A stretch of DNA of 32,707 nt. Source: an uncultured Clostridia bacterium. GTDB lineage: Bacteria; Bacillota; Clostridia; Oscillospirales; Oscillospiraceae. Numbering within the stretch: the first letter of the stretch is position 1; the number at the start of each line of letters is the position of its first letter. This document shows positions 2,207-23,347 of this stretch, one piece after another. Both the position numbers and the translations under genes were made by a program. The notes beneath the pieces are model-generated. The model had not been told where the DNA came from. It saw only the letters and a program-made list of their open reading frames with translations, and did no database searches. The stretch spans positions 1 through 32,707 of the forward strand of contig CAMSIF010000018.1 in assembly GCA_947058885.1 (NCBI GenBank), given 5' to 3'.

Positions 2207-2227
2207 GCCAGCCTCAGCGGCAGAATC
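2182..2227. terminator. Long inverted repeat shared by two convergent stop codons
   Basis: The arms are 2182-2198 and 2211-2227: 17 bases each, complementary except for one position (2188/2221), with a 12-base loop. The left arm encodes the last residues of the MATE protein and the right arm the last residues of McrC. Neither side has a clear T-run, so this is a terminator-like structure for both directions rather than a textbook intrinsic terminator. Confidence 0.6.
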
Positions 2228-3278
2228 CGGGAGCCGTTCCAAAGTGCTCCGCAGCGATTTGATTCAGCTGTTCCGCAATTTCGGAAAACTCCCGGTTAAG
2301 GTCCAACGTTTTAACACTAATCTTGTTCCCGCTCATTTGGTATACACAGTCCGGCTGGACAGCCTCGTCCGTCCCGGCGTAGAGCAGCATTCCCGACACC
2401 TGTCGGGGGGACGAGGCCGCTTCATTTTTTACATAGGCAAAAATCTGATACAAATGCTCTGACCGAATCCGGTCCGCGTCATACCTTGCCTGCATAATGC
2501 GGGTATAATACTTCGCGTCGATAATCAGCTCCGTATTTCCCCGGCGCAGCACAACGTCGCTCTGCATCACCGGAAGCAGCGTCCCTGCTCCGTCGTCCAG
2601 CGCCCACGGTATTTGTGGCGCGCTGGTTTTTATTTGCGGATATTCTCTGATGAAATATTCAAGGATGAATTTCTCATACAACCGGCTCATTCGCTGCTCG
2701 TCCACAAACGACGCCAGCCTGTATTCTCCATTCCCTGTGGTCAGGAGCATCCCCTCCAAAACCAATTGACAGACGCCAAGCAGCATACGGTACGTATGGT
2801 TATTCCTCTGAAAACGAATGGCCGCCCATCGGATGGAAGGCGGGTCAACCGCGCTGACCTCCGAGAAGAAGAGGAGTTTCCTCTTCAAGTCTGTTTTATA
2901 CGTCTCCTCCACCTCCGGGTGCCGCATCAGAAGAATCGCCGTAGTTTTTAAAATCTGATTAAACGGATTGTTTTCCGAGAGTTCACCGTACTCGCATGTC
3001 AGAAGCCGCTTTCTGGCAAGGCGGTTTCTGACGGCTCCTTGCAGATCGATTTTTCCCCGCATGGCGGAAACGTCCTCCCGGCGGCTCAGATACTCCCGGT
3101 AAAGCCCCTGCTTGAGCTGAATGCCGATTCCCCTGGCAAGAATTGCCGCAAACAGATTATGAGGGTTCTCAAAACGTTCTCCCGCAACGCTTTTATAGCC
3201 GTCCTGACGCAGTGCGGCGAAGGCGTAGGCGAGCATATAATAGATGTTCTTAATAAAAATACTCTTATCTTTTGTCAT
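2214..3278 (-). CDS. mcrC: McrC-like nuclease subunit of a type IV restriction system
   Basis: A 354-residue protein of the McrC family, the endonuclease partner of McrB. The N-terminus (IFIKNIYYMLAYAF) is typical of the family. A PD-(D/E)xK nuclease centre is visible as D241 (QSDVV) and D254-A-K256 (IIDAKYY). McrC binds the McrB ring, stimulates its GTPase and cuts DNA bearing modified cytosines or similar marks. I chose the ATG at 3278 because it overlaps the mcrB stop as ATGA, which implies translational coupling. A longer frame reaches 3308 but would run further into mcrB. It is the last gene of the defence operon and converges on the MATE gene. Confidence 0.93.
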   Translation of the reverse strand: MTKDKSIFIKNIYYMLAYAFAALRQDGYKSVAGERFENPHNLFAAILARGIGIQLKQGLYREYLSRREDVSAMRGKIDLQGAVRNRLARKRLLTCEYGELSENNPFNQILKTTAILLMRHPEVEETYKTDLKRKLLFFSEVSAVDPPSIRWAAIRFQRNNHTYRMLLGVCQLVLEGMLLTTGNGEYRLASFVDEQRMSRLYEKFILEYFIREYPQIKTSAPQIPWALDDGAGTLLPVMQSDVVLRRGNTELIIDAKYYTRIMQARYDADRIRSEHLYQIFAYVKNEAASSPRQVSGMLLYAGTDEAVQPDCVYQMSGNKISVKTLDLNREFSEIAEQLNQIAAEHFGTAPGFCR

Positions 3279-5317: not shown

Positions 5318-5356
5318 GTGCGGCTCCCTTCTATGTAAATACCGGCGCATGACCGG

Positions 5357-7639
5357 TTACAATGTTCCGGTCATCATGTTGTAATGCCTGGACTGGTCTA
5401 AGCATTGAAAAATCAGTTGGAACACACGCTTGCAGTCCTCTATATCTCTGCCGCTCTCAATAAAGTCTATGCCGCTGGTTCCCTGAGAACTGCCAGTATA
5501 CGCCAGCAAAGAGACCGCCAGACGGTACTTGGTTGAATCCAGCCGCTCATCTTCCCCGGCGGCGATAAACATATCCCTATGCCTCTCCAGCACGGTTTCC
5601 CGCAAGCTGTCCGCGTCATACCCGCAAAGCCGCAAAAAGTAGTACGATAAAATACGCCGCATGACGTTTATAGCGGGCACTGCCGATTTCACTTCCCGAA
5701 GCTCCTCCCACAAAGCGGCATAGGAATTTTGTATTGGGTTATAGTTTTCCCTGCCGGACGGCAGCGCGGCGTTTTGACGCTCGCACAGCCTGACTGTGGA
5801 AGAATTCTCGTTTTTTTGGACGGCGTAAAATGAGACGCGATCATAATACGCCAATTGTTGATACGTAATTTCCTGATGGAAATGCACGTTGTGCGTTAAA
5901 ATGAATACTTGCCTGATATAACCGCCCGGCGCCTTTGGATTCCGGCGTTCCGCGTTGTTTAGACAGGCGGCGGTCATCTCCCGAACAATGGAGCTCACAT
6001 AAAATAACGCCGTACCATCCATACCGGAAACCGGGTCGTCAATAACCACAATTTTCTCTTTGACACCGCCGCTACTGAGGCTCCCGCGCACCAGATGGTA
6101 AAAATACAGAAAAGCAATGAAGTTCTGTTCGCCCTCACTCAAATCTTCCACAGGCCCCTCCTCCTCGCGGCCGTCACGAACCACCTCATAGGTATTTGAC
6201 ATGCCTTCCCTGGCCCGAAGCCGGAAGCCCTGGAAGCCCGACTCCATCAACATGGTATTGATGCTGGCAACAGCCGCTTCCGTGTTTACTGTCTGCGCGT
6301 TCAACTCCGCAAGCTGGATACTGGCGGCGGCAATCTCCTTTTTCAGCTGTATGCCTCTGGTTTCCAGGATTTCTGCCTCCCGCTCAAGCCGGGCCTTTCT
6401 GTCGTAGTAGCTTTCCACCTCTCCGGAGAGCGTAAACGCAAGGTGCTCCATAACCTGAGTCCTGCATTTTTCTTTGCTGGCACGTCCTGCGTGTACCACG
6501 TCGTTATTCGCCTTAATCTGGAGATTTATCTCGTCTATCAAGCCGCCTGTTTCCAGAAGAAGGGAGTCCGTATCCTCCAGCGCAACGATACGTGCCGGTT
6601 CCCTTACCTTCTCCAAAAGCCGCTGGTTGTTGATTTGGAAACTGTTTTTCAGCATTGCCAGCTTCGCCTGGTATGGCGTTATTTCTATCTGCGGCATAAC
6701 ATCCGTCAGATTGTTTTCCAATACGCGGACAATCGCCGCGGTCTCGCTGGCGTAAGCCGCCTGGAACTGCTGGAGATCGCGGATATCCTGTTGATACTGC
6801 GCGTCGAAACAGGCGGCAATCTCCTCCTCAAATTCCGGCGGAAGCTTCTGCTGGCAATATGGACATTTCCCTCCGGCGAGGCCGGTGAGCCGGGCGTGTC
6901 CGTCCCGCACCCAATCCGTGGCGTTCAGGGCTTTCATAAACTGTGAGAAGGGCGTGTTGCTGCTGCTGACGGTCACTTTGTCCAGCAAATCTCTTCCCGG
7001 AAGGTTTCCGTAGGCCGGCGCACGGTCCACCCGCGAAAATTCCGGATAGACTCTGGCCGAGCTGTCGAACGCTACGCCGTACAGCCGCTTTAGTTCCTCG
7101 ATGCCGCGCTGCTGGGGGGACGCCTCTCTCAGCACGGCGTCCGCGAAGGTTTTCTTCTGTTTTTTCCCCTCCAGCGCCTTCCCGAACGCCTCCCGAAGCG
7201 CGGCGGCTTTGTTCCAACACTCTGTCTGAAAATCCCCCAGCAGGGCGTCTTGGGCGGCAGCTGTCCGCCTCCATTCCTCCAGCGCCGAGAACCGCTGCTC
7301 CTCCAGATGTTTTTTCTCCTCTGTTTTTTTCTGAATCTCCTGCTGGATTTGGATATTTGCCTCATTTACAGTATAAACGCCCGGAAGATTGGCGTAGCTC
7401 TGAAAGTTCCGATGAATAAAATCCTGGTTATAGACCAGCACGTCAAAATCGTCTGCGGCTGTTCCATGCTTCCAGGAAACGCCGCAGTTCTCCGCTATGG
7501 CTCGAGCGATAGTGGACTTTCCTGTACCGTTACTTCCGTAAAAAAAATTGACAAACGTCAGCTGTTCAACAGGCACATCTGAAAAAGTAGCCTTATTCAG
7601 CCTAATTTCCGTAATAGCCGAAGGAATTTTTCCCGTCAT
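5357..7639 (-). CDS. RloC-like AAA_13 ATPase with Rad50-type zinc hook
   Basis: A 760-residue SMC/Rad50-like ATPase of the AAA_13 family. Walker A GSNGTGKST is at 35-43. A coiled-coil region is interrupted by a CPYC zinc-hook motif (C259, C262). The ABC signature LSEGE is at 500-504 and Walker B IVVIDDP has D534-D535. The last roughly 150 residues resemble the C-terminal part of RloC, a tRNA anticodon nuclease activated by DNA damage or phage. The expected Arg-Glu-His triad is not complete: NVMRRILSYYF gives R661 with Ser at 665 where Glu is expected, and a late His is at 752. It may instead be a nuclease-free partner or a DNA-end sensor. The ATG at 7639 has AGGAGG 10 bases upstream. It is the first gene of an operon with mcrB and mcrC. 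Confidence 0.85.
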   Translation of the reverse strand: MTGKIPSAITEIRLNKATFSDVPVEQLTFVNFFYGSNGTGKSTIARAIAENCGVSWKHGTAADDFDVLVYNQDFIHRNFQSYANLPGVYTVNEANIQIQQEIQKKTEEKKHLEEQRFSALEEWRRTAAAQDALLGDFQTECWNKAAALREAFGKALEGKKQKKTFADAVLREASPQQRGIEELKRLYGVAFDSSARVYPEFSRVDRAPAYGNLPGRDLLDKVTVSSSNTPFSQFMKALNATDWVRDGHARLTGLAGGKCPYCQQKLPPEFEEEIAACFDAQYQQDIRDLQQFQAAYASETAAIVRVLENNLTDVMPQIEITPYQAKLAMLKNSFQINNQRLLEKVREPARIVALEDTDSLLLETGGLIDEINLQIKANNDVVHAGRASKEKCRTQVMEHLAFTLSGEVESYYDRKARLEREAEILETRGIQLKKEIAAASIQLAELNAQTVNTEAAVASINTMLMESGFQGFRLRAREGMSNTYEVVRDGREEEGPVEDLSEGEQNFIAFLYFYHLVRGSLSSGGVKEKIVVIDDPVSGMDGTALFYVSSIVREMTAACLNNAERRNPKAPGGYIRQVFILTHNVHFHQEITYQQLAYYDRVSFYAVQKNENSSTVRLCERQNAALPSGRENYNPIQNSYAALWEELREVKSAVPAINVMRRILSYYFLRLCGYDADSLRETVLERHRDMFIAAGEDERLDSTKYRLAVSLLAYTGSSQGTSGIDFIESGRDIEDCKRVFQLIFQCLDQSRHYNMMTGTL

Positions 7640-7713
7640 CCCAAGCCATCCTCCTGTTTTTATCCTATAACATGCGCCGCCGTTCGCTGCCGCGCAAAAA
7701 AAGCCGTGAAAAT

Positions 7714-7742
7714 AGCATACCATACATTATGATGAAACTCAA
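7714..7742 (-). promoter_or_regulatory. Likely promoter of the RloC-like/mcrBC operon
   Basis: On the minus strand, TTGAGT (7737-7742), a 17-base spacer and TATGCT (7714-7719) lie about 75 bases upstream of the first start codon. Both hexamers match the consensus at four of six positions, so this is a modest promoter. Confidence 0.45.
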
Positions 7743-11362: not shown

Positions 11363-12628
11363 TTACGCTTCTTCGTCCTCCGCGAAAGGATCGCCTACCG
11401 GCGGGATAACGCTATCCTCCGGCTGTTCCACTGCAGCCATAAATTGCGGTGTAACCTCCTCCGGCTCTTCAGCGGACACCGTCTCCACCGGTTCCGCCTC
11501 AGCTCGTTCCTCTCTGCTTTCCAGATTCCGGCCAGTCTCTTTATCAAATACGTGGGCCGCACTGCCTCGAAACGTAAAGTGTACCTGAGTTCCACGCAAA
11601 AAGAGGTCCCCGGACTCCGCTTCTTCCTCGCTCACCGGCACCACGATTACCACATCTCTCCCGCAGGCGGATACATGGATATGCACCGCGCTGCCCATCA
11701 TCTCCGACACGTCCACCGTTGCCTGGACAGCGTTCATATCTTCCGTAAGCACAATATGCTCCGGCCTGACCCCCAGGGTAATCTCCTGGGACCGCACCTC
11801 CCCGGCCAGCAGCCGGGCCTGCTTCTCTGGCGAAAGCGTCACCTCCGCAGAACCCAGCCGCACGGCATACTGGTCTCCCTTGCGCACCAATTCCGCATCG
11901 AAAAAATTCATCTGCGGCGTACCGATAAAGCCCGCCACAAATAGGTTTGCCGGGTGATGGAACACCTCCTGAGGCGTACCCACCTGCTGGACATACCCTT
12001 CCTTCATGATGACGATACGGTCTCCCAACGTCATAGCCTCCGTCTGGTCGTGGGTGACATAAATGAAGGTGGTATTCACCTTCTGCCGCAGCTTTATAAT
12101 CTCCGCGCGCATCTGATTACGCAGCTTGGCGTCCAGGTTGCTCAACGGCTCATCCATCAAAAATACCTGCGGCTCCCGCACAATCGCCCGTCCGATAGCC
12201 ACACGCTGCCGCTGTCCGCCGGACAACGCCTTGGGCTTACGCTTGAGCAATTCTGTAATATCCAATATTTCCGCCGCTTCCCGCACCTTCTGATCAATGA
12301 CCCGCTTGGGAAATTTTCGCAGCTTCAGACCGTAGGCAATATTATCGTAGACGGTCATATGGGGATACAACGCGTAGTTCTGAAACACCATGGCGATATC
12401 CCGGCTCTTGGGCGGAACGTTATTGACCTTCTTCCCGCCAATATAAATTTCGCCCTCCGTAATTTCCTCCAGCCCCGCTACCATCCGCAGCGTTGTTGAT
12501 TTCCCGCACCCGGAGGGTCCTACCAATACGATAAATTCCTTATCCGCAATCTCCAGGTCAAATGCCTGCACCGCTACTACGGTGTTATCATAGACCTTTT
12601 TTACTTTTCGCAAGCTCAGCTCCGCCAT
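11363..12628 (-). CDS. ABC transporter ATP-binding protein, MsmX/UgpC type
   Basis: A 421-residue ATPase of the carbohydrate-importer class. Walker A GPSGCGKST is at 37-45, Q-loop Q83, signature LSGGQ at 135-139 and Walker B LMDEP with D159-E160. The C-terminal TOBE-like region carries the LGVRPEH motif. About 50 residues at the C-terminus form an acidic Glu/Pro-rich tail not normally present (MsmX is about 365 residues). The ATG at 12628 follows GGAGGAG; a TTG two codons upstream is less likely. It is the last gene of the transport locus and the only ATPase there. It probably powers the two sugar-type permeases and, as inference, may also serve the MacB-like protein. Confidence 0.93.
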   Translation of the reverse strand: MAELSLRKVKKVYDNTVVAVQAFDLEIADKEFIVLVGPSGCGKSTTLRMVAGLEEITEGEIYIGGKKVNNVPPKSRDIAMVFQNYALYPHMTVYDNIAYGLKLRKFPKRVIDQKVREAAEILDITELLKRKPKALSGGQRQRVAIGRAIVREPQVFLMDEPLSNLDAKLRNQMRAEIIKLRQKVNTTFIYVTHDQTEAMTLGDRIVIMKEGYVQQVGTPQEVFHHPANLFVAGFIGTPQMNFFDAELVRKGDQYAVRLGSAEVTLSPEKQARLLAGEVRSQEITLGVRPEHIVLTEDMNAVQATVDVSEMMGSAVHIHVSACGRDVVIVVPVSEEEAESGDLFLRGTQVHFTFRGSAAHVFDKETGRNLESREERAEAEPVETVSAEEPEEVTPQFMAAVEQPEDSVIPPVGDPFAEDEEA

Positions 12629-12654
12629 GGACAATTCTCCTCCGGGTTTTTCTT

Positions 12655-12680
12655 ATTCTTTTTCTTGAAAGAAAAAGAAT
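12655..12680. repeat. 26-base AT-rich palindrome between transporter genes
   Basis: ATTCTTTTTCTT (12655-12666) and its exact complement (12669-12680) are separated by two bases. It lies between the MacB-like gene stop (12709) and the ATPase start (12628). It could form an mRNA hairpin that lowers or separates ATPase expression. The T-run is inside the stem, so it is not a standard terminator. Confidence 0.6.
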
Positions 12681-12708
12681 CAAAAAGAACTTTATAACGC
12701 TTCGCCAG

Positions 12709-13803
12709 CTATTCGTGAAATTTCTTCTCCAGACGTTTTTCTCTGCGCTTCTCAATCCCAGCTTCCACCTTCTCCGGCACCGTCTTCTTCAAGTACCGGT
12801 ATCCCCTGCGGACCGCCAAAATCCCAAATACCAGCGCAAACCCCGCCGGACAAATCCCAAACACCACAGCCAGCGCAAGCAGCAGCGCCGCGTAGTCCTC
12901 CGTCAGCCGCACCGCGTTTTCCCAGTAGGGATACACCACGCCGTTCGTCCGCATAGACCGTTGGCCAAATCCCCCTATCACCTCTGTCACCAAATGCGGC
13001 AGCCCGTACCGGTCGCTGTTTTCCACAATGTCCCCCTTCCCGATCGGGAAGATCTCCTTCACTACCCCCTTGGCATACCCGCTGATAGGGTCCGGCATAA
13101 CCACTTCATAAGAACTAATAGTGACCTCCTCTATCAGCCTGCTCATCGCGGAAAAGGACATAAACAGCCCCCCGTCCCCGCTGTACGCCTTCTTGGACGC
13201 AAAATCTTCCTCACGGCTGATGACCCCGGCCACCACAAAAGGCTCTTCATTAATATAGACCGTCATTCCCGCCAGGTCAGTGCCCCCAAAGAGCTTCCAC
13301 GCCAGCTCCTCATCCAGCACAACCAGGTCGTCCATCAAATCCTCGCCGTCAAAATAAGCCCCGCTCCTCAGCTGAAAGGGATGAAAGTAGAAAAAATCTC
13401 CTCCAACGCCTACAGCCTCTACACTCGCCGCCCCCCCTTCCGAGTTGACGTTCACAGAGGCGGCGGCACAGTACGCGTCAATATAGAGCCGTCCCCCCTC
13501 CGGAGCCTCCAGAGACTGCTCCACCATCTTGCCCTCCAAGCTCTGCCGGAAGGTAAGGATATCCTCTTCCGTTTTCCCTTCCCCCACCGGCAGAAAACAC
13601 GCCAACTGGGCAAACCGGGTTTCCCCGCCTCCCCGAAACCGCTCTGCGGCCGTCAGAGATTCCAGCGTATTCGCCATAATCCGCACTCCAACTATGGACG
13701 CCGCTGCGGCTAATATCAAAATGATATTCAAAATCAGCAGAAACCATTGCTTGAAGCTTAGTCTGCTGCCCTTTCCATCCTGCCGGCGAAAGATTATTCT
13801 CAT
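12709..13803 (-). CDS. MacB-like periplasmic-core-domain membrane protein lacking the FtsX permease domain
   Basis: A 364-residue protein. An N-terminal membrane segment (about 18-40) is followed by a large extracytoplasmic region resembling the MacB periplasmic core domain (VVLDEELAWKLFGGTDLAGM, then a FVVAGVISREEDF stretch), then one hydrophobic segment of about 33 residues near the C-terminus and a basic tail. Complete MacB-type permeases have four membrane segments and an FtsX domain; only two, or at most three, are present here. It overlaps the HlyD-like gene by 4 bases (ATGA), so the two are made together and probably form a MacA/MacB-like envelope assembly. Transported substrate unknown. 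Confidence 0.75.
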   Translation of the reverse strand: MRIIFRRQDGKGSRLSFKQWFLLILNIILILAAAASIVGVRIMANTLESLTAAERFRGGGETRFAQLACFLPVGEGKTEEDILTFRQSLEGKMVEQSLEAPEGGRLYIDAYCAAASVNVNSEGGAASVEAVGVGGDFFYFHPFQLRSGAYFDGEDLMDDLVVLDEELAWKLFGGTDLAGMTVYINEEPFVVAGVISREEDFASKKAYSGDGGLFMSFSAMSRLIEEVTISSYEVVMPDPISGYAKGVVKEIFPIGKGDIVENSDRYGLPHLVTEVIGGFGQRSMRTNGVVYPYWENAVRLTEDYAALLLALAVVFGICPAGFALVFGILAVRRGYRYLKKTVPEKVEAGIEKRREKRLEKKFHE

Positions 13804-15875
13804 GGATTCTCCACCATCCTGACCAAACTGCCCGGCTCCAAAGGCTTGCTGGACGTAGTTATCACGTAGTCGTTCGCCGCCACGCCGGTCACAGCCACGT
13901 TATTGTCATCCTCCGCCAGAACCTGCACGTCCACCCGGGTAGCGGTATACCTGTTCCCCAGCGGCGTACTCTTACTGGTCACCACAAGAACAAATTTCCC
14001 GTTATTGTCCTCTCGCAGTGCGCTTTTCGGAACAACCGTGTCCATCACAGTACTCTTCTGCCCAATAGAAAGGCTGATATTCGACCCTGCCTCAACATCG
14101 CCGGTCACCCGGAACACAAGTAATTTCTTCTGCCCCGGCGCGGACGAGTCGGATGCAATCGCCTCCAGAGTAGCGGTAATATCGCTCCAGCGATAGTTCG
14201 TCACCTCTGCGGTATCTCCAATTTTTACTGCCTTGGCCTGTTCGTTAGTGACAGATATCTTTATGGTATAGCCTCTGTCCACCACGTCAATCACCGCCAT
14301 AGCCTCCCCGGCGGTATTATCCTTTCCGGCGGTCACATTAATACTTTTTACCACACCGGAAACCTTGGAGGTAATTTCTGTATCTACAGATTCAGTTCGA
14401 TACTTTGCCACTAAAGCCTGCTGCCGTTCAATTTCCAGCCGCTTTGCCTCCAGCTCCAGATTATTCAGCTGCTTATCAATATCCTTCCCAGAGAGCGCTT
14501 CCTCCAGAGCTCTCTGCTTTTCCGCGATTAAACTCAGCGCGTCTTCATATAGCTTTTTCTTTGTCTCCAAAGCCGTGAGGTCCGATTCCAACGTTGTAAT
14601 CCTGGACTCCAAATCCCTCTTGCTTGATTCATAAATCCTGATTTGACTTTTCAATTGCTCATTGGAATTATTCGCTGCCTCCAACTGCGTCCGTGCGCCC
14701 TTCAGCTCATTCTGCGCCGTGATCAACTCCATCTGCGCGGCGTTCATCTTCTGCTGCAACACCTGCCGCTGCTGGGCAATTGTGTTGGAATCGCTGCTCT
14801 TATCCTCCAGCGCGCGGTCATACGTCTCCTGCGCGGTTTCCACCGCCGCCTGGCTGGTCAGCACCGCAGTATATGCGGCCCGCACATCGCTGTAGATATA
14901 GTCATATGTATCAGTAGGCTTGTTGTCTCCCTCATCCGGAGTCGTCGCGCCATTCTGAAATTGTTGCTTAATCGCGTCCTCTTGTCGTTTCAGCTCGCTC
15001 AACTGCCGCTCAATCTCCACCTGCTCACTGCTGGAAAACGCCCGTGGAGAGCTTCCAAGTTGATAAAATCCAGGAAGCTTTCTAAGGTCTGTCAAATTTG
15101 CCGCCCAATCCGCCGCCCATTTTGTCTGCGCCTTATCCAGAGCGTTTTTCGCGTCCTGAATCTTTCGCTCCGCATCCAAACTCGCGCCGGTATCCAGCTT
15201 CTCCAGCTCGTCCTCGAATCCCTTCACCTTCTCCGTCAGCGTGGATACCTTCGTCTCCAGCTCCGATACCTTTTCCTTCGCCGCCGCTGCCTTTTCATCA
15301 TTGCTCTGAGTAGCGTTCAGTTCTCCAAGAATCAGCTCCGTCTGACTCAATTGCGTTTTCGCCGCCGCAAGGTCCCCCTTGGCATACGAAACATCAGTAT
15401 CTGTCACCAGATTTTCATCCCGTTGCGCAATTGCCTTCTCCAACTCCAGCTTTATATTCCGCACGTTCAGGTCATCCGAGACATACTCCTTCGACAGATT
15501 CAATATCTGCTTCTGATAGTCTAGCTCCAACGTCTGCAGCTGCTCCTGCGCAGTTTTCAGTTCCTCACTCTCAATGTCGCCCAGCACAAACAGCAGGTCC
15601 CCCTCCTGTACGCTGTCCCCCACCTTCACACACACGGACCGCACCTCGCGGGTCTGGTTAATGACAACCTCATAGCTCTCATTCGCCGCCACCGTGCCGT
15701 TCCCGCGTATCTTCGCGTTAATCGTACCGGAACTAACCACCTGTGTCGCTACCTCGGGCAGCGAGTAGTTCATAAAGGTGTTGGAAAAGAAGGTCAAGAT
15801 CAATAGAATCACCAAAAAGATGATGGCGATAGTCTTGATAAGCTCCCTCTTTTTGGATTTTTCTTTGACTTCCAT
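13800..15875 (-). CDS. HlyD/MacA-like membrane fusion (adaptor) protein with very long coiled coil
   Basis: A 691-residue adaptor, against roughly 350-450 for most of the family. Order of parts: membrane anchor (about 13-30); first lipoyl-like half (GNGTVAANESYEV to VGDSVQEGDLLFVLGD); a coiled-coil hairpin from about 105 to 490, broken by a less helical insert (LRKLPGFYQLGSSPRAFS); second lipoyl half (ITSKVSGVVKSINVTAG, from about 497); and a beta-barrel and membrane-proximal region. The ATG at 15875 has AAAGGA upstream; the ATG at 15893 has none. It is coupled to the MacB-like gene by ATGA overlap and separated from the permeases by a repeat element. Such adaptors bridge an inner-membrane transporter and the envelope; the cargo is unknown. 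Confidence 0.88.
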   Translation of the reverse strand: MEVKEKSKKRELIKTIAIIFLVILLILTFFSNTFMNYSLPEVATQVVSSGTINAKIRGNGTVAANESYEVVINQTREVRSVCVKVGDSVQEGDLLFVLGDIESEELKTAQEQLQTLELDYQKQILNLSKEYVSDDLNVRNIKLELEKAIAQRDENLVTDTDVSYAKGDLAAAKTQLSQTELILGELNATQSNDEKAAAAKEKVSELETKVSTLTEKVKGFEDELEKLDTGASLDAERKIQDAKNALDKAQTKWAADWAANLTDLRKLPGFYQLGSSPRAFSSSEQVEIERQLSELKRQEDAIKQQFQNGATTPDEGDNKPTDTYDYIYSDVRAAYTAVLTSQAAVETAQETYDRALEDKSSDSNTIAQQRQVLQQKMNAAQMELITAQNELKGARTQLEAANNSNEQLKSQIRIYESSKRDLESRITTLESDLTALETKKKLYEDALSLIAEKQRALEEALSGKDIDKQLNNLELEAKRLEIERQQALVAKYRTESVDTEITSKVSGVVKSINVTAGKDNTAGEAMAVIDVVDRGYTIKISVTNEQAKAVKIGDTAEVTNYRWSDITATLEAIASDSSAPGQKKLLVFRVTGDVEAGSNISLSIGQKSTVMDTVVPKSALREDNNGKFVLVVTSKSTPLGNRYTATRVDVQVLAEDDNNVAVTGVAANDYVITTSSKPLEPGSLVRMVENP

Positions 15876-15902
15876 TGGTTTCCATCCTTTCATGGGATTT
15901 CA

Positions 15903-15963
15903 CCGCCTGCGGGCGGCGACCAGGGGCTCTGCCCCTGGACCCCGCAAGCCTTTGTAAAGGCTT
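15903..15963. repeat. Triple-hairpin intergenic repeat (REP-like) inside the transport operon
   Basis: Three adjacent perfect stem-loops: CCGCC/GGCGG (15903-15916), CCAGGGGC/GCCCCTGG (15920-15938) and AAGCCTTT/AAAGGCTT (15946-15963). They fill the gap between the second permease stop and the adaptor start. From memory, near-identical hairpin trios recur between genes in Oscillospiraceae genomes, so it is likely a dispersed repeat. It could also reduce read-through or protect upstream mRNA. Confidence 0.7.
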
Positions 15964-15977
15964 GACCTAAACTTTTA

Positions 15978-16865
15978 TTATCCCTTTACCGAGCCCTGGT
16001 GCGCTATTCCCTCCACAAGATAATCCTCTCCATGCAGGAATAACAATAGGCACGGCACCATATAGATCGTGGCTATGGCAAACGCCAACCCCACCTCATT
16101 TGCGTTAATTGTTGACAAATACACCGACAACGGCTGCTGCGCCGCATCCGGCAGCAGCACAATCGGCTGTTCCACCATATTCCAATAATCTATAAACACC
16201 AATATCGCTACCGAATACAACGCGCTCCTGCACTGCGGCAAACAAATATCCTTAAATACCTGCCACTCACTGGACCCATCCAGCTTCGCCGCCTCTATCA
16301 GCGACCCTGGTATCCTCCGCATGGATTTCGTCAGCAAAAACACCGAAAACGGAGCGAACATCCCCGGAAAGATAATCGCCCATCTCGTATTCAATATCCC
16401 CAGCCACCCGCTGACCAGGTAATTCGGCACCAGCGTCACCTGCGTTGGCATCAGCATCAAAATGACATAGAAAAAGAACAAAAACGCCCGCACTTTCCCC
16501 CGCCATCTTGTAAATCCAAAAGCCGTCACCGACGCCACCGCCAATTGCAGCAGTACAATCGGTACTACCAATATCGCGGAGTTCCAAAACTTCAGAAGAT
16601 AATCCGGACTCCGTATCAGTACATTGATATACTGGCTCAAACTCACCTTGTCCGGTATAAATTTAAGGTTCACCGTCTCCGCGATATACGTCTTCCCATC
16701 GCTCCCCGATACATTCGAAAAGACCTTACCATAATTCGCGCTGATTTCACTCTGGGTCATAAAGGAGTTGGAGATAGTCAGCACCGTCGGCAGCAAAAAC
16801 GCCAGCGCAAATCCTGCCGCCAGAACAGTCAAGGCAAACCGGCCAAAATACCGTTTCTTTTTCAT
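15978..16865 (-). CDS. Sugar-type ABC permease, MalG-like
   Basis: A 295-residue permease with about six membrane segments. The EAA loop that docks the ATPase (IEAAKLDGSSEWQVFKDICL) lies near residues 185-208. A large extracytoplasmic loop follows the first membrane segment, as in MalG-type proteins. It forms the translocation channel with the neighbouring MalF-like protein. Its ATG overlaps the preceding gene's stop (ATGA, 16862-16865), indicating coupled translation. The final residues (LVEGIAHQGSVKG) match the common C-terminal tail of the family. Substrate not readable; carbohydrate is the usual class. Confidence 0.94.
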   Translation of the reverse strand: MKKKRYFGRFALTVLAAGFALAFLLPTVLTISNSFMTQSEISANYGKVFSNVSGSDGKTYIAETVNLKFIPDKVSLSQYINVLIRSPDYLLKFWNSAILVVPIVLLQLAVASVTAFGFTRWRGKVRAFLFFFYVILMLMPTQVTLVPNYLVSGWLGILNTRWAIIFPGMFAPFSVFLLTKSMRRIPGSLIEAAKLDGSSEWQVFKDICLPQCRSALYSVAILVFIDYWNMVEQPIVLLPDAAQQPLSVYLSTINANEVGLAFAIATIYMVPCLLLFLHGEDYLVEGIAHQGSVKG

Positions 16866-17821
16866 CCCTCAACGTCCTTTCCAAATATATCCTCCGCCTT
16901 GAACAGCAGGGCTATCAATGCTACCATCACCAACGCCATCAGCACCGCCGCCGTGGACATCTTCTGATAATCCAGGTTATTAAAAGTATTGTTCATAAAG
17001 TGCTGCATCATATACAATCCGTCGTAAGGATAGTTCCCCGTTAGCAAATATATTTCCCGGAACACCTTAAACGAGTTAATGATGGACAAAATCGCTACAA
17101 ACAACACCGTCGGCGACAGATACCGCAGCTTGATATTAAAGAACTTATGAGCGGCTGAGGCCCCCTCTACGTCTGCCACCTCCAACAATTCCTTCGGAAT
17201 ATTGTTCAGCGCCGCCATAAAGAGAATCATATTATACCCCAGATTCTTCCACAAAAACAGAATCACAATCACCATCAGGCAGTACGGCGAGTTCAGCCAG
17301 TCAACCGCTTCCACCCCAAAGTTTGCCAATATGACATTAAACGTCCCCCGATAATGGAACACCACCTGCCAAATCAGCACCACCGATGCCACCGGCACCA
17401 TCATGGGACTCAGAAAGAATGTCCGAAACAAACTCTTGCACGGAATGCGGCACTCCAGCAGCAGCGCCAGCGAAAGACTAAGCACTACTGCCAGAGGTAC
17501 CGCAATGACAGAAAACATTGCCGTGTTTTTTGCCGCCGTCCGGAATGAGGTATTCTGTAAAACGGCCTTGAAGTTGTCCAAAAACACAAACTCAGGATTA
17601 ATTGGGCTTCGTATGACGGAGTAATAGACCACCACCAGGAACGGCACAATGAAAAACAGTGCCACCCCCGTCACGCTGGGACCAAGGAACCCCATACTGC
17701 AAAGCGTATCCCGCAGCCGTTCGTTCCCCTGGTCCCAAGCCCGGCGGGCAGTCCGCTGCTTACTCGCAGCCGTTTTCTCTCCGTTTTTTTTCTTCGTACC
17801 CCCAGCTTTACCGATTTTCAT
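16862..17821 (-). CDS. Sugar-type ABC permease, MalF-like
   Basis: A 319-residue permease. A basic cytoplasmic N-terminus of about 45 residues, rich in Lys and Arg, precedes six predicted membrane segments. The EAA loop (LLEVADVEGASAAHKFFNIK) is near residues 208-230. It pairs with the MalG-like protein. The ATG at 17821 lies inside the end of the binding-protein gene (14-base overlap) with AAGGTG upstream, so its translation probably depends on that gene. Confidence 0.94.
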   Translation of the reverse strand: MKIGKAGGTKKKNGEKTAASKQRTARRAWDQGNERLRDTLCSMGFLGPSVTGVALFFIVPFLVVVYYSVIRSPINPEFVFLDNFKAVLQNTSFRTAAKNTAMFSVIAVPLAVVLSLSLALLLECRIPCKSLFRTFFLSPMMVPVASVVLIWQVVFHYRGTFNVILANFGVEAVDWLNSPYCLMVIVILFLWKNLGYNMILFMAALNNIPKELLEVADVEGASAAHKFFNIKLRYLSPTVLFVAILSIINSFKVFREIYLLTGNYPYDGLYMMQHFMNNTFNNLDYQKMSTAAVLMALVMVALIALLFKAEDIFGKDVEG

Positions 17822-20384
17822 TGATATACAGTTGCACCTTGCCCTGAATCAGGCTTGCCGTCTCATCCAGGCCCTTATCTCCAGTAAAATAGCTCCCTGC
17901 CATTTCACTGATAATGTCATAGATGCTGGTATCATAGTTTGTGACCGTCTCTACCGCGTTATATAGTTCCATAATCTGGTCATATTCCTCCTGGGTAGTG
18001 GCCACAATGTCAATACTCAGGCTGTCACCCCAGCTCCAGCCGCCCTTGGATCTCTCTACCGGGTTGCCGTCCTGGTCCAGAACCTGCTTGCCCTCGCTGT
18101 CCGTTTCATATTCTACCTCCATCGCTTCGGCAACGGTGGCGTCAAAATCTGTCTTGTTAGTGGGGAAGTTCCAGCTATAAGCGTCGCCGTAATACTTACG
18201 GTCAGCCACCGGCAGCAGCAGCTCTCGGATAAAGGACCACGCGCCATCCTTGTCCTTACAGGCGCTGGACATTGCTATACCATTTGAAATACTGAAGCTG
18301 CTTCCACAGCTGCCGTCCTCCATGGGGTAACCCTTGAAGGTGACATACCGGCCCGGAATCAACCGTTGGAAGGTATTCATATCCATGCCCATACTGGCGC
18401 TGGACGAGCTGGCGGAACCCGTCGTCACCACCGTATAGCTGCCGCCAGAACCGTAAGAGCTCTCATAGGTTCTCAGCCCCTCTGTACCGGCAAACATGGC
18501 CTCATACATCTGGAAATCGTCAAAACCGCCCAGTGACACTCTCTTAAGCATCTGCTTGCCCGCCGCGATACGGACAGGCTCTTCCTCATAGTCCTCTCCC
18601 CGGGACTCCCAGTCATACTCCGCCGGGAAACTGTTGCAGAATTCCAGCATGGCCTTGAATTCATCGCTGTCAAACCGGCACTCGCCGCTGTCCCAGTCAA
18701 CATAAGCGTCCGTGTTCATGCCCATAGTGTACATCAGCATACCGCTCTTGGTATCGCTCTCGTCAAAGATGGAACATCCCTCCGGCATCGTAGCCAGCGC
18801 GGCTTTCAGTTCCTCCAGGGTCCAGCCCAAATCGTCTCCCACTACCTTCCGGGAACCAATAACCGTGTCAATACCGAAATTGGCGAAAACCTGATAGAGC
18901 TTTCCATCCTGCTCCGCAGCGGTAAACACCCGCTCCATTAAATTCTCCCGGCCAATTGCCGGATCATTCTCGATTAAAGGCCACAGGTCCTCCAGTATGC
19001 CCTTCGCGCCATACTGCTGCAACGGCAGGCCGCTGACCGACAGAATATCCGGCGCCGCTCCCGCCAGAATCTCCGTGTTCAGCTTTGTCAGCCCCGCCTG
19101 ATAGTCTTCCTCTGTGCTGTACTCAGAGTAGTCCTTAATTTCAATGCGGTACTTATCGTTGGTCTTGTTGAACTTAATGATGGCGGAACGTATATCTGAA
19201 TTCACTCCCATAGTAGCAAAGGTCAGAACCGTTTTATCCGCCAGAACAGACGCGTCTTTCTCCTCCAGAATCGCCAGCTCGGTAATCTGCTTATGGGAGT
19301 AATCGTCTCCGTTATTGACTCTGGCCCAATCCTGGGTCATGGCGGCCACCCGTCCGTCGGGCAGGAAGCTGAAGAATACCAGCCGGTCCATATTGATATC
19401 CGCCGCGCTCCAGCTCAAAAGCCGCTCCCCTTCCTGTGTCTCAGCGTTATAGCCGTACAGGGATTCTCCGCCATTATAATAGAAAAGGTATTTATCCGTA
19501 CCGTTGTAGATATTGTTGGCCGTATACGGCAGCGGGTAATCAGTACCCCAAGCCTTGGCCTCCGTGTCCAGTACCGACAGGGAGAGATTCCCTTCCGTGT
19601 CCCGGCGGCGCACTCCTACCGTGCCGTCCCCCAGGAGGGTAAAGTCCCCCCACGCGTTGTTCTCCAAAGAGAAGAGCACATTCATATCCTTGTCCAGCAC
19701 AGCGATTTGGGAGCCGTTCTCCCCGCTGATGGACACGTAGAAACGCCCTTCCGCATCCACTGTTACGCTGTTGATGTAATCCACTTCCCCCAGCTTCTCA
19801 TACATGGCGCTGGTGTCAATGACGCTAAGCTCCTTCCCTGTGCTGTCCAGCTGCCGCCGGAGTTCCACGTTCTTGCTGGTCTGGTAGTCCCATTTGCTGT
19901 CGGTTTCCTCGTTAAAATCCTCTGGCAAATCAAACTCGTATACTGTCGCCTGCTCGGCTACCCAGAGGGTGCCGTCCAGACCGGCGGAGATACTGCCAAT
20001 GTTGAACCAGCCCTCGTCGTAGCTGTTAAAGGTATAGGAAGGTTCGTAGTTCTCCAGCTCCGTCACGCTGCCATCCTCCAGAGAAATCCGGAAAATGGCG
20101 GCTCTGGAGCTGTAGTTGGTGGAAACCACCCCTGTTTCCGGGTCCGTGACCTCCTCCTCGTTGGAGATATCCGCCACAACATACACGTTTTGCCCGTCGC
20201 AGCAGGCGCTGTTTATGTATTCCGCTTCCAGGTCCAGGTCAATAAAAGAGGGTACGTAAATAGTCCCGCTGAGCTGGTCCGTGTCAGCATTTTTATCGTC
20301 CCCGCCGCTCCCGCAGGCCGCCAGCCCCAAGACAATGCAGAACGCCAGCAGCAGCGCAGTCAATTTCTTTCCTTGTATCCTCAT
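17808..20384 (-). CDS. Large two-part extracellular solute-binding lipoprotein (copy 1)
   Basis: An 858-residue lipoprotein with lipobox LAAC (cysteine 24). The first roughly 380 mature residues contain repeated short motifs such as DGTLWVAEQ, EGRFYVSIS and LGDGTVGVRR, like a beta-propeller. The rest is a family-1-type solute-binding domain (IIKFNKTNDKYRIEIKDYSE, LNTEILAGAAPDILSV, PEGCSIFDESDTK). Ordinary binding proteins are about 400-450 residues, so this one is doubled in size. The ATG at 20384 has AGGAGG 7 bases upstream. It is closely related to the adjacent copy 2 over its whole length and to that gene's upstream region. It should deliver the ligand to the MalF/MalG-type permeases. Confidence 0.92.
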   Translation of the reverse strand: MRIQGKKLTALLLAFCIVLGLAACGSGGDDKNADTDQLSGTIYVPSFIDLDLEAEYINSACCDGQNVYVVADISNEEEVTDPETGVVSTNYSSRAAIFRISLEDGSVTELENYEPSYTFNSYDEGWFNIGSISAGLDGTLWVAEQATVYEFDLPEDFNEETDSKWDYQTSKNVELRRQLDSTGKELSVIDTSAMYEKLGEVDYINSVTVDAEGRFYVSISGENGSQIAVLDKDMNVLFSLENNAWGDFTLLGDGTVGVRRRDTEGNLSLSVLDTEAKAWGTDYPLPYTANNIYNGTDKYLFYYNGGESLYGYNAETQEGERLLSWSAADINMDRLVFFSFLPDGRVAAMTQDWARVNNGDDYSHKQITELAILEEKDASVLADKTVLTFATMGVNSDIRSAIIKFNKTNDKYRIEIKDYSEYSTEEDYQAGLTKLNTEILAGAAPDILSVSGLPLQQYGAKGILEDLWPLIENDPAIGRENLMERVFTAAEQDGKLYQVFANFGIDTVIGSRKVVGDDLGWTLEELKAALATMPEGCSIFDESDTKSGMLMYTMGMNTDAYVDWDSGECRFDSDEFKAMLEFCNSFPAEYDWESRGEDYEEEPVRIAAGKQMLKRVSLGGFDDFQMYEAMFAGTEGLRTYESSYGSGGSYTVVTTGSASSSSASMGMDMNTFQRLIPGRYVTFKGYPMEDGSCGSSFSISNGIAMSSACKDKDGAWSFIRELLLPVADRKYYGDAYSWNFPTNKTDFDATVAEAMEVEYETDSEGKQVLDQDGNPVERSKGGWSWGDSLSIDIVATTQEEYDQIMELYNAVETVTNYDTSIYDIISEMAGSYFTGDKGLDETASLIQGKVQLYINENR

Positions 20385-20423
20385 GGGTAACCTCCTAAGC
20401 TTGCATGAAATAGTATGCTTCCA

Positions 20424-20482
20424 ATTGTATTCATCCATGCATCATATTTGCATCGTTCCCCCATCATTTCTGTCTTATTTTT
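20424..20482 (-). promoter_or_regulatory. Promoter and 11-bp-period direct-repeat operator of binding-protein copy 1
   Basis: Read on the minus strand: an A-rich AAAAATAAGACA (20471-20482), then GATG at 20462-20465, 20451-20454 and 20440-20443, each 11 bases apart. Fourteen bases after the start of the last repeat comes TACAAT (-10, 20424-20429). The -35 position holds TGCAAA, a poor match, so activator dependence is likely. The block matches that upstream of copy 2 at 37 of 46 positions. A small palindrome (CTTAAG twice, 20484-20498) lies upstream. Confidence 0.75.
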
Positions 20483-20520
20483 CCTTAAGATTCTTAAGAA
20501 AATTTTAAAATTCCAGCTTC

Positions 20521-22956
20521 TTACATCTGCTCTCCGATATACAGCTTCACCGCGCTCTGAATAAGGTTCGCCGCGTCGTCCAACGTCTTGTCTCCAGCAA
20601 AGTAAGGCCCGGCGTTCTCCTTCACGATGTCGAAAATGCTGTTGTCATAGCTCCAGATGGTGGTAACGCTGTTGTAAATATCCATAACCTGGTCCACTTC
20701 TTCCTGCGTGGCGGCATAGACCTCAATCTGGTGGTCGTCGTCTATCCACCAGGAGGACCGGCTCTCTTTCATAGGCTCGCCGTTTTCATCCAGAATTTGC
20801 TCGCCGTTTTCGTCTGTAACATACTTGATGGTCATAGAGTCGTTCATATACCGGTCAAAATCCTTGCGGTTGATGGGGAAGTCGTTAATCCAGTACTCCT
20901 CCTCCAGCTGGGGCAGAAGAGCCTTGCGAATGAAGGACCACACGGCGTCCTTGTTCTTGCTGACAGAACTCATGGCAAATTTGAACCGGCCCATGGGCTG
21001 GAAGCTGCTGCCGACGCTGCCGTCCTCCATGGGATAGCCCACAAAGCTGACTTCGCCGCCGAACATACCCTTTTGAATCTGAGGTATGGTAAAGCTGTCC
21101 AGGTAAATGAGCTTGAGCATCTGCTGACCGTTGACAATTCTATCTTCATCGTTCTGGTAATCTTCCCCAACTTCCTCCCAATTGAACTCATCCGGGAAGC
21201 TGTTGCAGAACTCCAGCAGAGCTTTGAAACTGTCTCCGTTAAAGCTGCATGTGCCGGTGGACCAGTCCACAAAGCTGTCGATGTTGCAGGAGAGGATATT
21301 GTCCAGTATACTTTCCTTGGTGTCGCTCTCGCCGAAGATAGTGCTTCCCTCGGGCATAGTGTCCATGGCGGCCTTCAGGTCGGCCAGGGTCCAGCTGGTG
21401 CGGTCCCCTACCACTCCGGCGGCTCCCACTATGGTACGGATATCGAACATATCGAAGATTTGATAGAGCTTTCCATTTTGCTCCGCAGCCTTCAGGGCAT
21501 TCTCCATAACGCCCGCGCGGCCCCCGATTTCCTCATCGTTTTCAATGTAGGGCCACAGATCCTCCAGCAGGCCCTTTGCGCCGTATTGGCCGATGGGCAT
21601 ACCGGTTCCGGCGTCCAGAATGTCCGGCACGCGTCCGGCCAGTATCTCGGTGTTCAGCTTGGTAAGACCCGCTGTGTTGTCCTCGCCGGTATTGTACTCA
21701 TTGTAGTCCTGCACCTCAATGCGGTACAGCTCGCTGGTCTTGTTGAATTCAATAATCGTGTTGCGCATATCATACCCCAGGCCCATACAGGCGTATGTAA
21801 GGGTAGTTTTCTGCGGCAGCGTAGAGGCGTCGGTAGGAGTGAGCATTGCTATCTCATTCTCGACTTTTTCGCCGTCCCAATTCCGTGTCAGCGCGGCCAC
21901 CCGTCCATCGGCCAGGAAGGTGAAAAACTGCACCTGATCCTGGTCGATATCGGAGTTAATCCAGGAGAAAATCTTCTCCCCCTCCCCGCTGCCCGCCTTC
22001 TGGCCGTACACAGAGGTGCCGTTACGGTAGTAGAAGAGGAAGTCCCCGCCGCCGGTATAGACATCGTAGGCGCTCTGGCTCAATTCATAGCTGGCTCCCC
22101 AATCCTTGGCGGCCACATCAATGACTTTCAGGCGGGTACCGCCGTTTTTGCTCTCTTCGTCGTAGTAGGACTGACGCATTCCCACGGTGCCGTCCCCCAA
22201 TATGACCATACTGCCGTACATATCTTTGCCGTCAAGGGAGAACAGCAGGTTCATCTCCCTGTCCAGCACCGCCACCTTGCTGTCGGAGTTGGTATAGATG
22301 TTTCCTGCATCGTCAACGATGGTGTCATAGACATAATCCAGCCCCGCCTTCTCCTGGATATTTTCCAATTCGATACGATCCAGCTCCGCGCCGGTTTTAT
22401 CCAGCTTGCGCACGATAATGGTGTTTTTCTCGCCGGTTTGGTAGTTGTACTTACTGTCGGTCTCCTCATCGAAGTCTTCCGGCAAGTCGTAGGTGTAGGT
22501 ATACAGGGTTTCGGTGACCCACAGCGAGCCATCCGTGCCAGCACGCAGTTTGGAAATGTCTGAGCTGCCCTCCATCGAGTCCTCCGGGAGTTTTGTGGGC
22601 TCAAAGCCGCTGAGCTCCTGTGCCGTACCGCCAGCCAGAGGAACCTGGAAAAGCTTGGTCACATAGTCGTAGTAAGTGTAGGACTCGGTCTGTTCCACAC
22701 CGTTCTCATCCGTCCAGGTGTGGGTCTCCTCGTGTTCTTCTCCCTGAACCATGCCCGTAAAATAGATGTACTCGCTGTCCGCGCATCCCTGTTGGATGTA
22801 CTCAGCTTCCGATGTAATACTGGTAAAGGTTGGCACATAGATAGTTCCGCTGATTTGCTGCGCGCCGTCGTCCTTCTCTTCGCCGCAGGCCGCCAGCCCC
22901 AGCAGTAAGCAGGCCGCCAGCAGCAAGGCGGTCAGCTTCTTTCCCAATCTTTTCAT
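20521..22956 (-). CDS. Large two-part extracellular solute-binding lipoprotein (copy 2)
   Basis: An 811-residue paralogue of copy 1: same signal peptide plan (lipobox LAAC, cysteine 24), same SGTIYVP start of the mature part, same DLPEDFDEETDSKYNYQT and ILGDGTVGMRQ motifs in the propeller-like half, and the same LNTEILAGRVPDIL and PEGSTIFGESDTK motifs in the binding half. It lacks a segment of copy 1 after the motif LKRVSLGGFDDFQMYEA (a Ser/Gly-rich stretch), which explains most of the length difference. The ATG at 22956 has AAGGAGG upstream. It is first in the locus, with its own promoter; copy 1 follows after 136 bases with another promoter. It probably feeds the same permeases with a related ligand. 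Confidence 0.92.
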   Translation of the reverse strand: MKRLGKKLTALLLAACLLLGLAACGEEKDDGAQQISGTIYVPTFTSITSEAEYIQQGCADSEYIYFTGMVQGEEHEETHTWTDENGVEQTESYTYYDYVTKLFQVPLAGGTAQELSGFEPTKLPEDSMEGSSDISKLRAGTDGSLWVTETLYTYTYDLPEDFDEETDSKYNYQTGEKNTIIVRKLDKTGAELDRIELENIQEKAGLDYVYDTIVDDAGNIYTNSDSKVAVLDREMNLLFSLDGKDMYGSMVILGDGTVGMRQSYYDEESKNGGTRLKVIDVAAKDWGASYELSQSAYDVYTGGGDFLFYYRNGTSVYGQKAGSGEGEKIFSWINSDIDQDQVQFFTFLADGRVAALTRNWDGEKVENEIAMLTPTDASTLPQKTTLTYACMGLGYDMRNTIIEFNKTSELYRIEVQDYNEYNTGEDNTAGLTKLNTEILAGRVPDILDAGTGMPIGQYGAKGLLEDLWPYIENDEEIGGRAGVMENALKAAEQNGKLYQIFDMFDIRTIVGAAGVVGDRTSWTLADLKAAMDTMPEGSTIFGESDTKESILDNILSCNIDSFVDWSTGTCSFNGDSFKALLEFCNSFPDEFNWEEVGEDYQNDEDRIVNGQQMLKLIYLDSFTIPQIQKGMFGGEVSFVGYPMEDGSVGSSFQPMGRFKFAMSSVSKNKDAVWSFIRKALLPQLEEEYWINDFPINRKDFDRYMNDSMTIKYVTDENGEQILDENGEPMKESRSSWWIDDDHQIEVYAATQEEVDQVMDIYNSVTTIWSYDNSIFDIVKENAGPYFAGDKTLDDAANLIQSAVKLYIGEQM

Positions 22957-23047
22957 TGTTCTTCCTCCTTACAGGTATAATGTCATAGCAATCCGTCTGG
23001 AATGATAGACGTAAATTGGAGCAGGAAGGTTCCCCCTCCATTTCTAT

Positions 23048-23106
23048 ATTTTATTTCCTCGTGCATCATTTTTGCATCTATCCACCATCACAGTTGTTTT
23101 ATTTTT
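23048..23106 (-). promoter_or_regulatory. Promoter and 11-bp-period direct-repeat operator of binding-protein copy 2
   Basis: Minus-strand order: AAAAATAAAACA (23095-23106), GATG at 23086-23089, 23075-23078 and 23064-23067 (exact 11-base steps), then TAAAAT (-10, 23048-23053) starting 14 bases after the first base of the last repeat. The -35 position is TGCAAA, as in copy 1. The geometry is identical to copy 1, although the distance to the start codon differs (leader about 85 bases here, about 33 there). Confidence 0.75.
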
Positions 23107-23191: not shown

Positions 23192-23220
23192 TTTACACCC
23201 GGCAAATGGCATGATATAAT
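23192..23220 (+). promoter_or_regulatory. Promoter of the cbi operon
   Basis: TTTACA (23192-23197), a 17-base spacer and a perfect TATAAT (23215-23220). The predicted start is near 23227, shortly before the cobalamin riboswitch. Confidence 0.85.
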
Positions 23221-23238: not shown

Positions 23239-23347
23239 CGCCAGCTGCGGCCTCCCCAATGGCACATGGAATAGGGTGGGAATCCCTGCGAGTCGGTCAC
23301 TGTGATGCTTCCCCAAGAAGCTCAGTCAGATACATGGCAGTTTGGCG
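23239..23347 (+). ncRNA. Cobalamin riboswitch (aptamer)
   Basis: An outer stem forms from CGCCA-g-CTGC (23239-23248) and GCAG-tt-TGGCG (23337-23347). Inside are the conserved cobalamin-aptamer elements in order: GGAATAGGGTG, GGAATCCC, the CACTGTGA core near 23298-23305, and a B12-box-like AGTCAGATACATGGCAG at the 3' side. This last differs from the usual CCTGCC ending. It lies between the cbi promoter and cbiD and is followed by an intrinsic terminator, so bound B12 should switch the operon off. Confidence 0.88.

Follow-up and report, generated by a model that had tools for sequence, protein, structure and literature searches.

What controls a transporter operon whose two paralogous binding-protein genes, SBP1 and SBP2, are preceded by the same block of repeats? 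The operon lies on the minus strand of a contig from an uncultured Oscillospiraceae bacterium (CAMSIF010000018.1, assembly GCA_947058885.1), of which positions 1 to 32,707 were analyzed (hereafter the window). An earlier note, made from the sequence alone, had described three GATG repeats upstream of both genes and proposed them as the operator of a cooperative activator acting over a weak -35 element. We find that, judged by comparison with related genomes, this predicted operator of the PhoB/OmpR direct-repeat kind is real and conserved. It is probably the target of a PhoB/OmpR-family response regulator, most likely one encoded on another contig of the same genome, which we call RRa.

Repeats and promoters upstream of SBP1 and SBP2

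Direct reading of the minus strand finds GATG three times at exact 11-base pair (bp) steps upstream of both genes. At SBP1, the distal unit lies at 23086-23089 and the middle and last units at 23078-23075 and 23067-23064; at SBP2, the three units lie at 20462-20465, 20454-20451, and 20443-20440. The -10 hexamers, TAAAAT at promoter 1 of SBP1 (23048-23053) and TACAAT at SBP2 (20424-20429), were read directly and confirmed by alignment. As the earlier note had it, each begins 14 nucleotides (nt) past the start of the last GATG, and an A-tract stands at the same offset upstream of both operators (at SBP1 AAAAATAAAACAA, 23094-23106, from direct reading and column information). One more 11-bp step up from the distal GATG, the SBP1 A-tract contains AAAACA, perhaps a fourth, degenerate unit.

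Aligned over 46 nt, the two upstream regions agree best at 20483-20438, with the 37/46 given before; in 40 mononucleotide shuffles no match exceeds 29. When the 46-nt block is instead set to end with the -10 hexamers, 33/46 agree. The flanking DNA does differ, with a same-register identity of only 8-13/46 at 60 to 120 nt off the block on either side, and so do the leaders, which measure 122 nt (SBP1) versus 70 nt (SBP2) from the start of the conserved core, defined below, to the ATG. The exact pattern GATG-N7-GATG-N7-GATG occurs twice in the window and three times in the 2.40-Mb source genome (178 contigs, 75.8% complete), compared with once for the reversed-pattern control. Together with TANNAT at the described distance, it is found only at the SBP1 and SBP2 places among 99 genomes. 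We set aside a search that allowed two mismatches, because its 104 matches in the source genome (52 in the reversed control) are mostly noise. A promoter scan called no sigma-70 promoter at either operator place, and an Rfam search gave no match at gathering score.

Two other elements were seen nearby. Two CTTAAG elements lie upstream of the SBP2 operator (20498-20484, minus strand), and a TT-rich, CTTAA-like stretch recurs about 34 nt ahead of the core in many aligned sites.

Conservation of the operator

Relatives of SBP1 occur in at least 41 of the 99 genomes, the source genome included. From among the matches listed we took 40 regions with 60 related open reading frames (ORFs), dropped three without an assignable start, and counted 57; starts were placed by a lipobox rule and could be wrong for a few genes. 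The core, GATGCAA-N3-TGATRCA, was called present when at least 13 of its 14 fixed letters matched within 300 nt upstream. It precedes 37 of the 57 genes, in 22 genomes of the genus (source genome included) and in G039 of another genus. The earlier note had tied its proposal to the presence of the motif upstream of relatives, where it was thus found. In 29 of these 37 sites, TANNNT begins 25 or 26 nt past the core start. In an alignment of 28 sites, which were picked by their match to the core, the 13 unambiguous core letters carry 1.56-2.0 bits, compared with 0.04-0.35 bits in the columns from 3 nt past the -10 onward.

These comparisons modify the description of the element. Site alignment and profile place the conserved core at 23062-23078 for SBP1 (GATGCAAAAATGATGCA) and 20438-20454 for SBP2 (GATGCAAATATGATGCA), two units with an 11-bp period. 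The third unit reads GATG in 9 of the 37 sites and GAT in another 6; the remaining 22 have other letters. The three-GATG operator is therefore exact in the window, but across the alignment it becomes two strong, promoter-proximal units plus one or two weak ones, with no conserved requirement for the distal GATG; the distal unit of SBP1 is itself weakly conserved. Similarly, TGCAAA, previously read as a poor -35, does stand 17 nt ahead of both -10 hexamers, but the aligned sites assign it to the conserved repeat GATGCAA rather than to an independent -35. The element thus has like units in direct orientation, at least two of them, with a period of about 11 bp, and at binding-protein genes these units overlap or replace the -35 at a fixed distance to the -10 (29 of 37). 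On these counts the comparison favors a cooperative activator acting over a weak -35, as had been suggested.

In the phylogenetic tree, SBP1 of the window pairs with SBP1 of G015, and SBP2 of the window with SBP2 of G015 (support 100/100 each). The copies of G007 join the respective groups (100/99, five SBP1 rows; 99/91, three SBP2 rows). The two paralogues therefore predate the split of G000, G015, and G007 and, as judged from tree and alignment, each lineage has retained the operator. An exact scan for GATGCAA-N3-TGATRCA-N8-TANAAT over a species-genome collection (84,980 genomes) returned 22 stretches, of which 17 belong to genus genomes already in our comparison and the other five are scattered.

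A candidate regulator

We found 12 OmpR-type regulators in the source genome. One of them, RRa (contig C15, 3377-4039), lies in a cluster ordered RRa-kinase-X-VanY1, with a histidine kinase and a VanY-type D,D-carboxypeptidase. It has a receiver domain (PF00072) and a winged-helix Trans_reg_C domain (PF00486), and none of its 25 best NCBIfam models scored above cut-off. RRa falls below the cut-offs for the PhoB equivalog (185.8 versus 296.2 bits), the YycF/WalR equivalog (168.9 versus 340 bits), and the best VanR model (162.2 versus 350 bits).

Several lines of evidence connect RRa with the repeats. Orthologues with 81-95% identity are present in 20 of 24 other genomes of the genus, one of them partial. 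Among 15 genomes of other families, G072 and G074 have full-length relatives (at least 58% identity) and are the only two with motif matches, the match counts being lower bounds; G064, without a motif match, has only a fragment (55%), at the edge of a contig. A three-unit pattern search of 394 genomes of the order, which is independent of any protein, matched seven genomes (the place in G179 was left out of the reading). It reached the region before an RRa-family regulator gene in G375 (three units) and a six-unit array, with GACGCA as its fifth unit, before an RRa relative on contig C4 of G074. A further array before a regulator gene on contig C16 of G074 was found through protein homology, and in G072 the motif precedes the gene of the RRa relative. 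The paralogue RRb has arrays before its own gene in four of six clusters, compared with none of the 11 other OmpR-type regulators of the source genome. Within the RRa cluster of the source genome, three units precede vanY1, with TAATCT 15 nt past the last. Furthermore, a stretch reading VDLHVQRLRKK, allowing no more than two changes, is common to RRa, RRb, and the relatives in G072, G074, and G375; the 11 other regulators lack it, and we take it to be the recognition helix.

Other observations weigh against RRa. The RRa gene itself has no array upstream in any of 11 genus clusters, the source genome included. Within 4 kb downstream of these 11 genes, the full array (18/18) appears in only two (source genome and G001); four clusters reach 14/18 and five reach 11-13/18, the nearest relative G015 among the latter. 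The 14/18 matches may be due to chance, since one of them (G006) sits at another place. TANNNT at 15 nt accompanies only three of eight regulator-gene arrays (G072, contig C16 of G074, and RRb of G002). No TANNNT follows the arrays in G375 and on contig C4 of G074, and the last unit of the latter starts 24 nt before the start codon; these arrays may therefore repress or act otherwise. RRa was not found in G008, G014, G021, and G022, all of which have sites (assemblies 67-98% complete). Finally, RRb clusters use the variant unit GATGCC, so specificity appears to vary within the family.

A putative ECF-type promoter downstream of the SBP1 operator

The general promoter consensus of extracytoplasmic function (ECF) sigma factors combines a GGAAC-type -35 with a CGTC-type -10. 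SBP1 has a putative second promoter of this type, which the earlier note had not noticed and which was identified by letter match, in which GGAAC (23029-23033) is followed after a 17-nt spacer, within the 16-17 nt expected, by CGTCTAT (23005-23011); GGAAC-N17-CGTCTAT at 23033-23005 agrees at 12/12 letters. SBP2 has the operator alone, with no ECF element, and the different leader lengths fit an ECF-type promoter at SBP1 but not at SBP2. Across the binding-protein genes, an ECF-like element with at least 11/12 letters accompanies 20 of 37 genes with the operator, compared with 1 of 20 without it (Fisher test, p = 0.0002, relatedness ignored). In all 20, 42-50 nt separate GGAAC from the operator start; in 15 of them the figure is 45 or 46 nt. 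Relative to the PhoB-type direct-repeat class, this rigid pairing of operator and predicted ECF promoter is the unusual aspect of the system.

The same pair recurs, at 43 nt, before both regulator genes examined of a type that we call RR123, those of G006 (11/12 letters) and G012 (10/12 letters). The opposite order is seen at nine genes for large secreted proteins, where GGAAC lies upstream by 73-83 nt in seven and by 125 and 221 nt in two; six of the nine have 11-12 matching letters and three have 9-10. Three genomes (G002, G005, and G022) have an ECF-like element, in the CGTCCTAT form, 55 nt ahead of the operator. Four vanY genes match at only 8-9 letters, near the shuffled level. A genome-wide scan for GGAAC-N17-CGTCTA with one mismatch was rejected as noise (40 matches, 81 in the reversed control), so we draw on near-exact matches at fixed places only.

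It is conceivable, if rather unlikely, that one operator serves two holoenzymes, activating a main-sigma promoter by -35 replacement and an ECF promoter from the same place. With predicted starts near 23041 and 22999, the core would then span about -37 to -21 for the main-sigma promoter and about -79 to -63 for the ECF promoter. Such an arrangement would explain the constant 42-50 nt in the 20 genes with a strong ECF element and, if true, would make the operator a two-signal coincidence module that is reused across a cell-envelope regulon.

The proposed wider regulon

For a wider search we built a profile (R1) from 23 of the 28 aligned sites, leaving out five with a shifted or weak -10; it matches those 23 by construction. 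Across 62 genomes, 20 further places were read and many weaker matches left out. Fifteen of the 20 precede envelope or secreted-protein genes: large secreted proteins (eight genomes), an SLH protein with a phosphate-binding-like domain (three), lipoproteins (two), and VanY-like proteins (two). A domain scan of four such proteins found SLH in three and DUF6612 in one. Two more places precede RR123-type regulator genes (G006 and G012). The remaining three do not fit, since those on contig C269 of G021 and contig C71 of G024 precede a short gene of another kind, and that in G004 lies at a contig end.

In the source genome, GATRCM-N5-GATRCM occurs seven times (reversed control, four): at SBP1, at SBP2, twice at vanY1, at a large secreted-protein gene on contig C78, and at two others, on contigs C11 (beside a LexA-like gene) and C19, which look like chance and were discarded. 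A second VanY-domain gene of this genome (contig C14) is preceded, at 16280, by the units GATGCC, GATGGC, GATGGG, and TATGCA at 11-bp steps, with TAAGAT 15 nt past the fourth; it is therefore a likely regulon member, and its units are RRb-like. TANNNT stands at 15 nt in all three VanY arrays tested (vanY1 and vanY2 of the source genome and vanY1 of G001). A match at position 25524 of contig C4 was set aside, as the same-strand ORFs below it are antisense to a clear regulator ORF. Arrays also precede a FemAB-like gene in G074 and G262. Matches of the three-unit search that do not fit are those in G109, before a phage-terminase-like ORF, and in G437, with no ORF near. The nature of the targets (carboxypeptidases, S-layer-type proteins, and an efflux-like transporter) suggests that the inducing signal would be cell-envelope stress.

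Proposed mechanism and alternatives

In the mechanism that we propose, RRa monomers would line up head to tail, each on a GATRCA unit one helical turn from the next. The last of these units would stand in for the -35, so that phosphorylated RRa would, by analogy with PhoB, recruit the main holoenzyme at both genes to TANAAT 14 nt downstream. RRa would in this way switch on the operon at SBP1 and again internally at SBP2, as part of a wider RRa cell-envelope regulon. The second promoter of SBP1, at its fixed distance downstream, would depend on an ECF sigma factor and could allow two envelope signals to feed the operon.

A different OmpR-family regulator may bind instead, whether RRb, one of the RR123 type, or one missing from an assembly that is 75.8% complete; we consider this possible, though clearly the less likely choice. 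RRb is a candidate through the arrays before its gene in four of six clusters, and RR123 because its genes bear the motif in G012 and G006 and share a fetched region with a binding-protein gene in G006, G012, and G017. However, the 12 OmpR-type regulators of the source genome include no RR123 orthologue (best match, 41-42%) and no RRb (next match to RRa, 43%), even though this genome has intact sites. Another promoter precedes the binding-protein genes next to RR123 (G006, G012, and contig C18 of G017), and RRb arrays consist mainly of GATGCC rather than GATGCAA. RR123 was accordingly set aside as the regulator in the source genome.

The earlier note had left the choice between a response regulator and an AraC-type protein encoded elsewhere. 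An AraC-type or other non-OmpR activator is compatible with the sequence alone, as one-turn direct repeats suit some other activators too. Nevertheless, AraC-type proteins bind two unlike half-sites, the units here are alike, and array searches repeatedly reached OmpR-family regulator genes (AraC genes were not searched for). We therefore regard such an activator as quite improbable; the response regulator is favored and narrowed to the PhoB/OmpR family. That the two blocks resemble each other merely as a functionless remnant of gene duplication is hardly credible, even though SBP1 and SBP2 are paralogues with 50% identity. Their separation is older than that of G000, G015, and G007, the DNA outside the block is unmatched in register, and the core, which 37 genes from 23 genomes retain, also stands before genes of unrelated kinds.

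Relation to known systems

Excerpts of two papers describe PhoB units bound head to tail, with the box replacing the -35 and the regulator contacting sigma (PMC4415409, PMC4971064). As in the Pho box of PhoB (PhoP) in these excerpts, at least two like tandem units here replace the -35 near a sigma-70 -10, and RRa comes from the same PhoB/OmpR family. Unlike the Pho box, the unit is GATRCA and the candidate falls below the PhoB equivalog cut-off; unlike in the Pho regulon, the targets read are mostly envelope genes. At the Pseudomonas aeruginosa pdtA and phdA promoters, PhoB and the ECF sigma factor VreI act on one upstream region, according to an excerpt of PMC4971064, and the predicted pairing at SBP1 is similar in combining a PhoB-family-type operator with an ECF-type promoter. 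The geometry differs, however. The PhoB box of that excerpt directly precedes the ECF -35 and acts for the ECF promoter, whereas at SBP1 a sigma-A-like -10 belongs to the operator itself and the ECF-type -35 follows about 45 nt past the operator start.

The RRa cluster resembles VanRS control of VanY/VanX in uniting an OmpR-family regulator, a histidine kinase, and a VanY-domain protein, but scores against the listed VanR and VanS models stay well short of the cut-offs (no search was made for other van genes). Clostridioides difficile DraRS, an envelope system studied, in the part of the paper retrieved, in a sigma-V deletion strain (PMC10601699), is a parallel and not a precedent for the operator. 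Among openly licensed papers, weak evidence of absence, we found nothing relevant on this operator and no like study in these bacteria; on Oscillospiraceae regulons, only a riboswitch review turned up.

Our analysis thus yields a regulator candidate, a DNA code, and a target list for uncultured Oscillospiraceae, and ties an uncharacterized transporter to putative cell-envelope control. With a PhoB-type operator and an ECF-type promoter paired at a fixed distance, the system could also serve to study how genes are shared between a two-component system and an ECF sigma factor.

The operon and other features of the window

The operon (11363-22956, minus strand) joins importer and exporter parts. 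SBP1 (20521-22956) encodes an 811-amino acid, lipoprotein-like paralogue of SBP2, with no Pfam or NCBIfam match of its own; SBP2 (17808-20384; 858 amino acids) has a weak SBP_bac_1 match below the Pfam cut-off. They are followed by two ATP-binding cassette (ABC) permeases (BPD_transp_1; 16862-17821 and 15978-16865), an HlyD/RND-type adaptor protein (13800-15893), a MacB-type permease (MacB_PCD; 12709-13803), and a UgpC/MalK-type ABC ATPase that scores above the NCBIfam UgpC cut-off (11363-12634). Many of the fetched genus regions, and some from other genera of the family, contain a group of matching genes.

Seven sister binding-protein genes (L086-L089 and L091-L093; G006, G009, G017, G023, G008, G011, and G012) share another kind of promoter: all seven have GTAAG repeats and TGTAAGATTT. 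For three of them, the fetched region also contains an RR123-type regulator, possibly forming a second regulator-operator pair.

Elsewhere in the window, a sub-threshold adenosylcobalamin riboswitch match (23265-23336, plus strand; 20.6 bits, cut-off 50) lies upstream of divergent cobalamin-synthesis genes, with a promoter-like TTTACA-N17-TATAAT ahead of it at 23192-23220. Genes at 2214-7723 (minus strand) encode a McrC-like protein, an AAA_5 protein with an EVE domain, and an AAA_13 protein matching the PADLOC candidate PDC-S06, and form a probable defense cluster.

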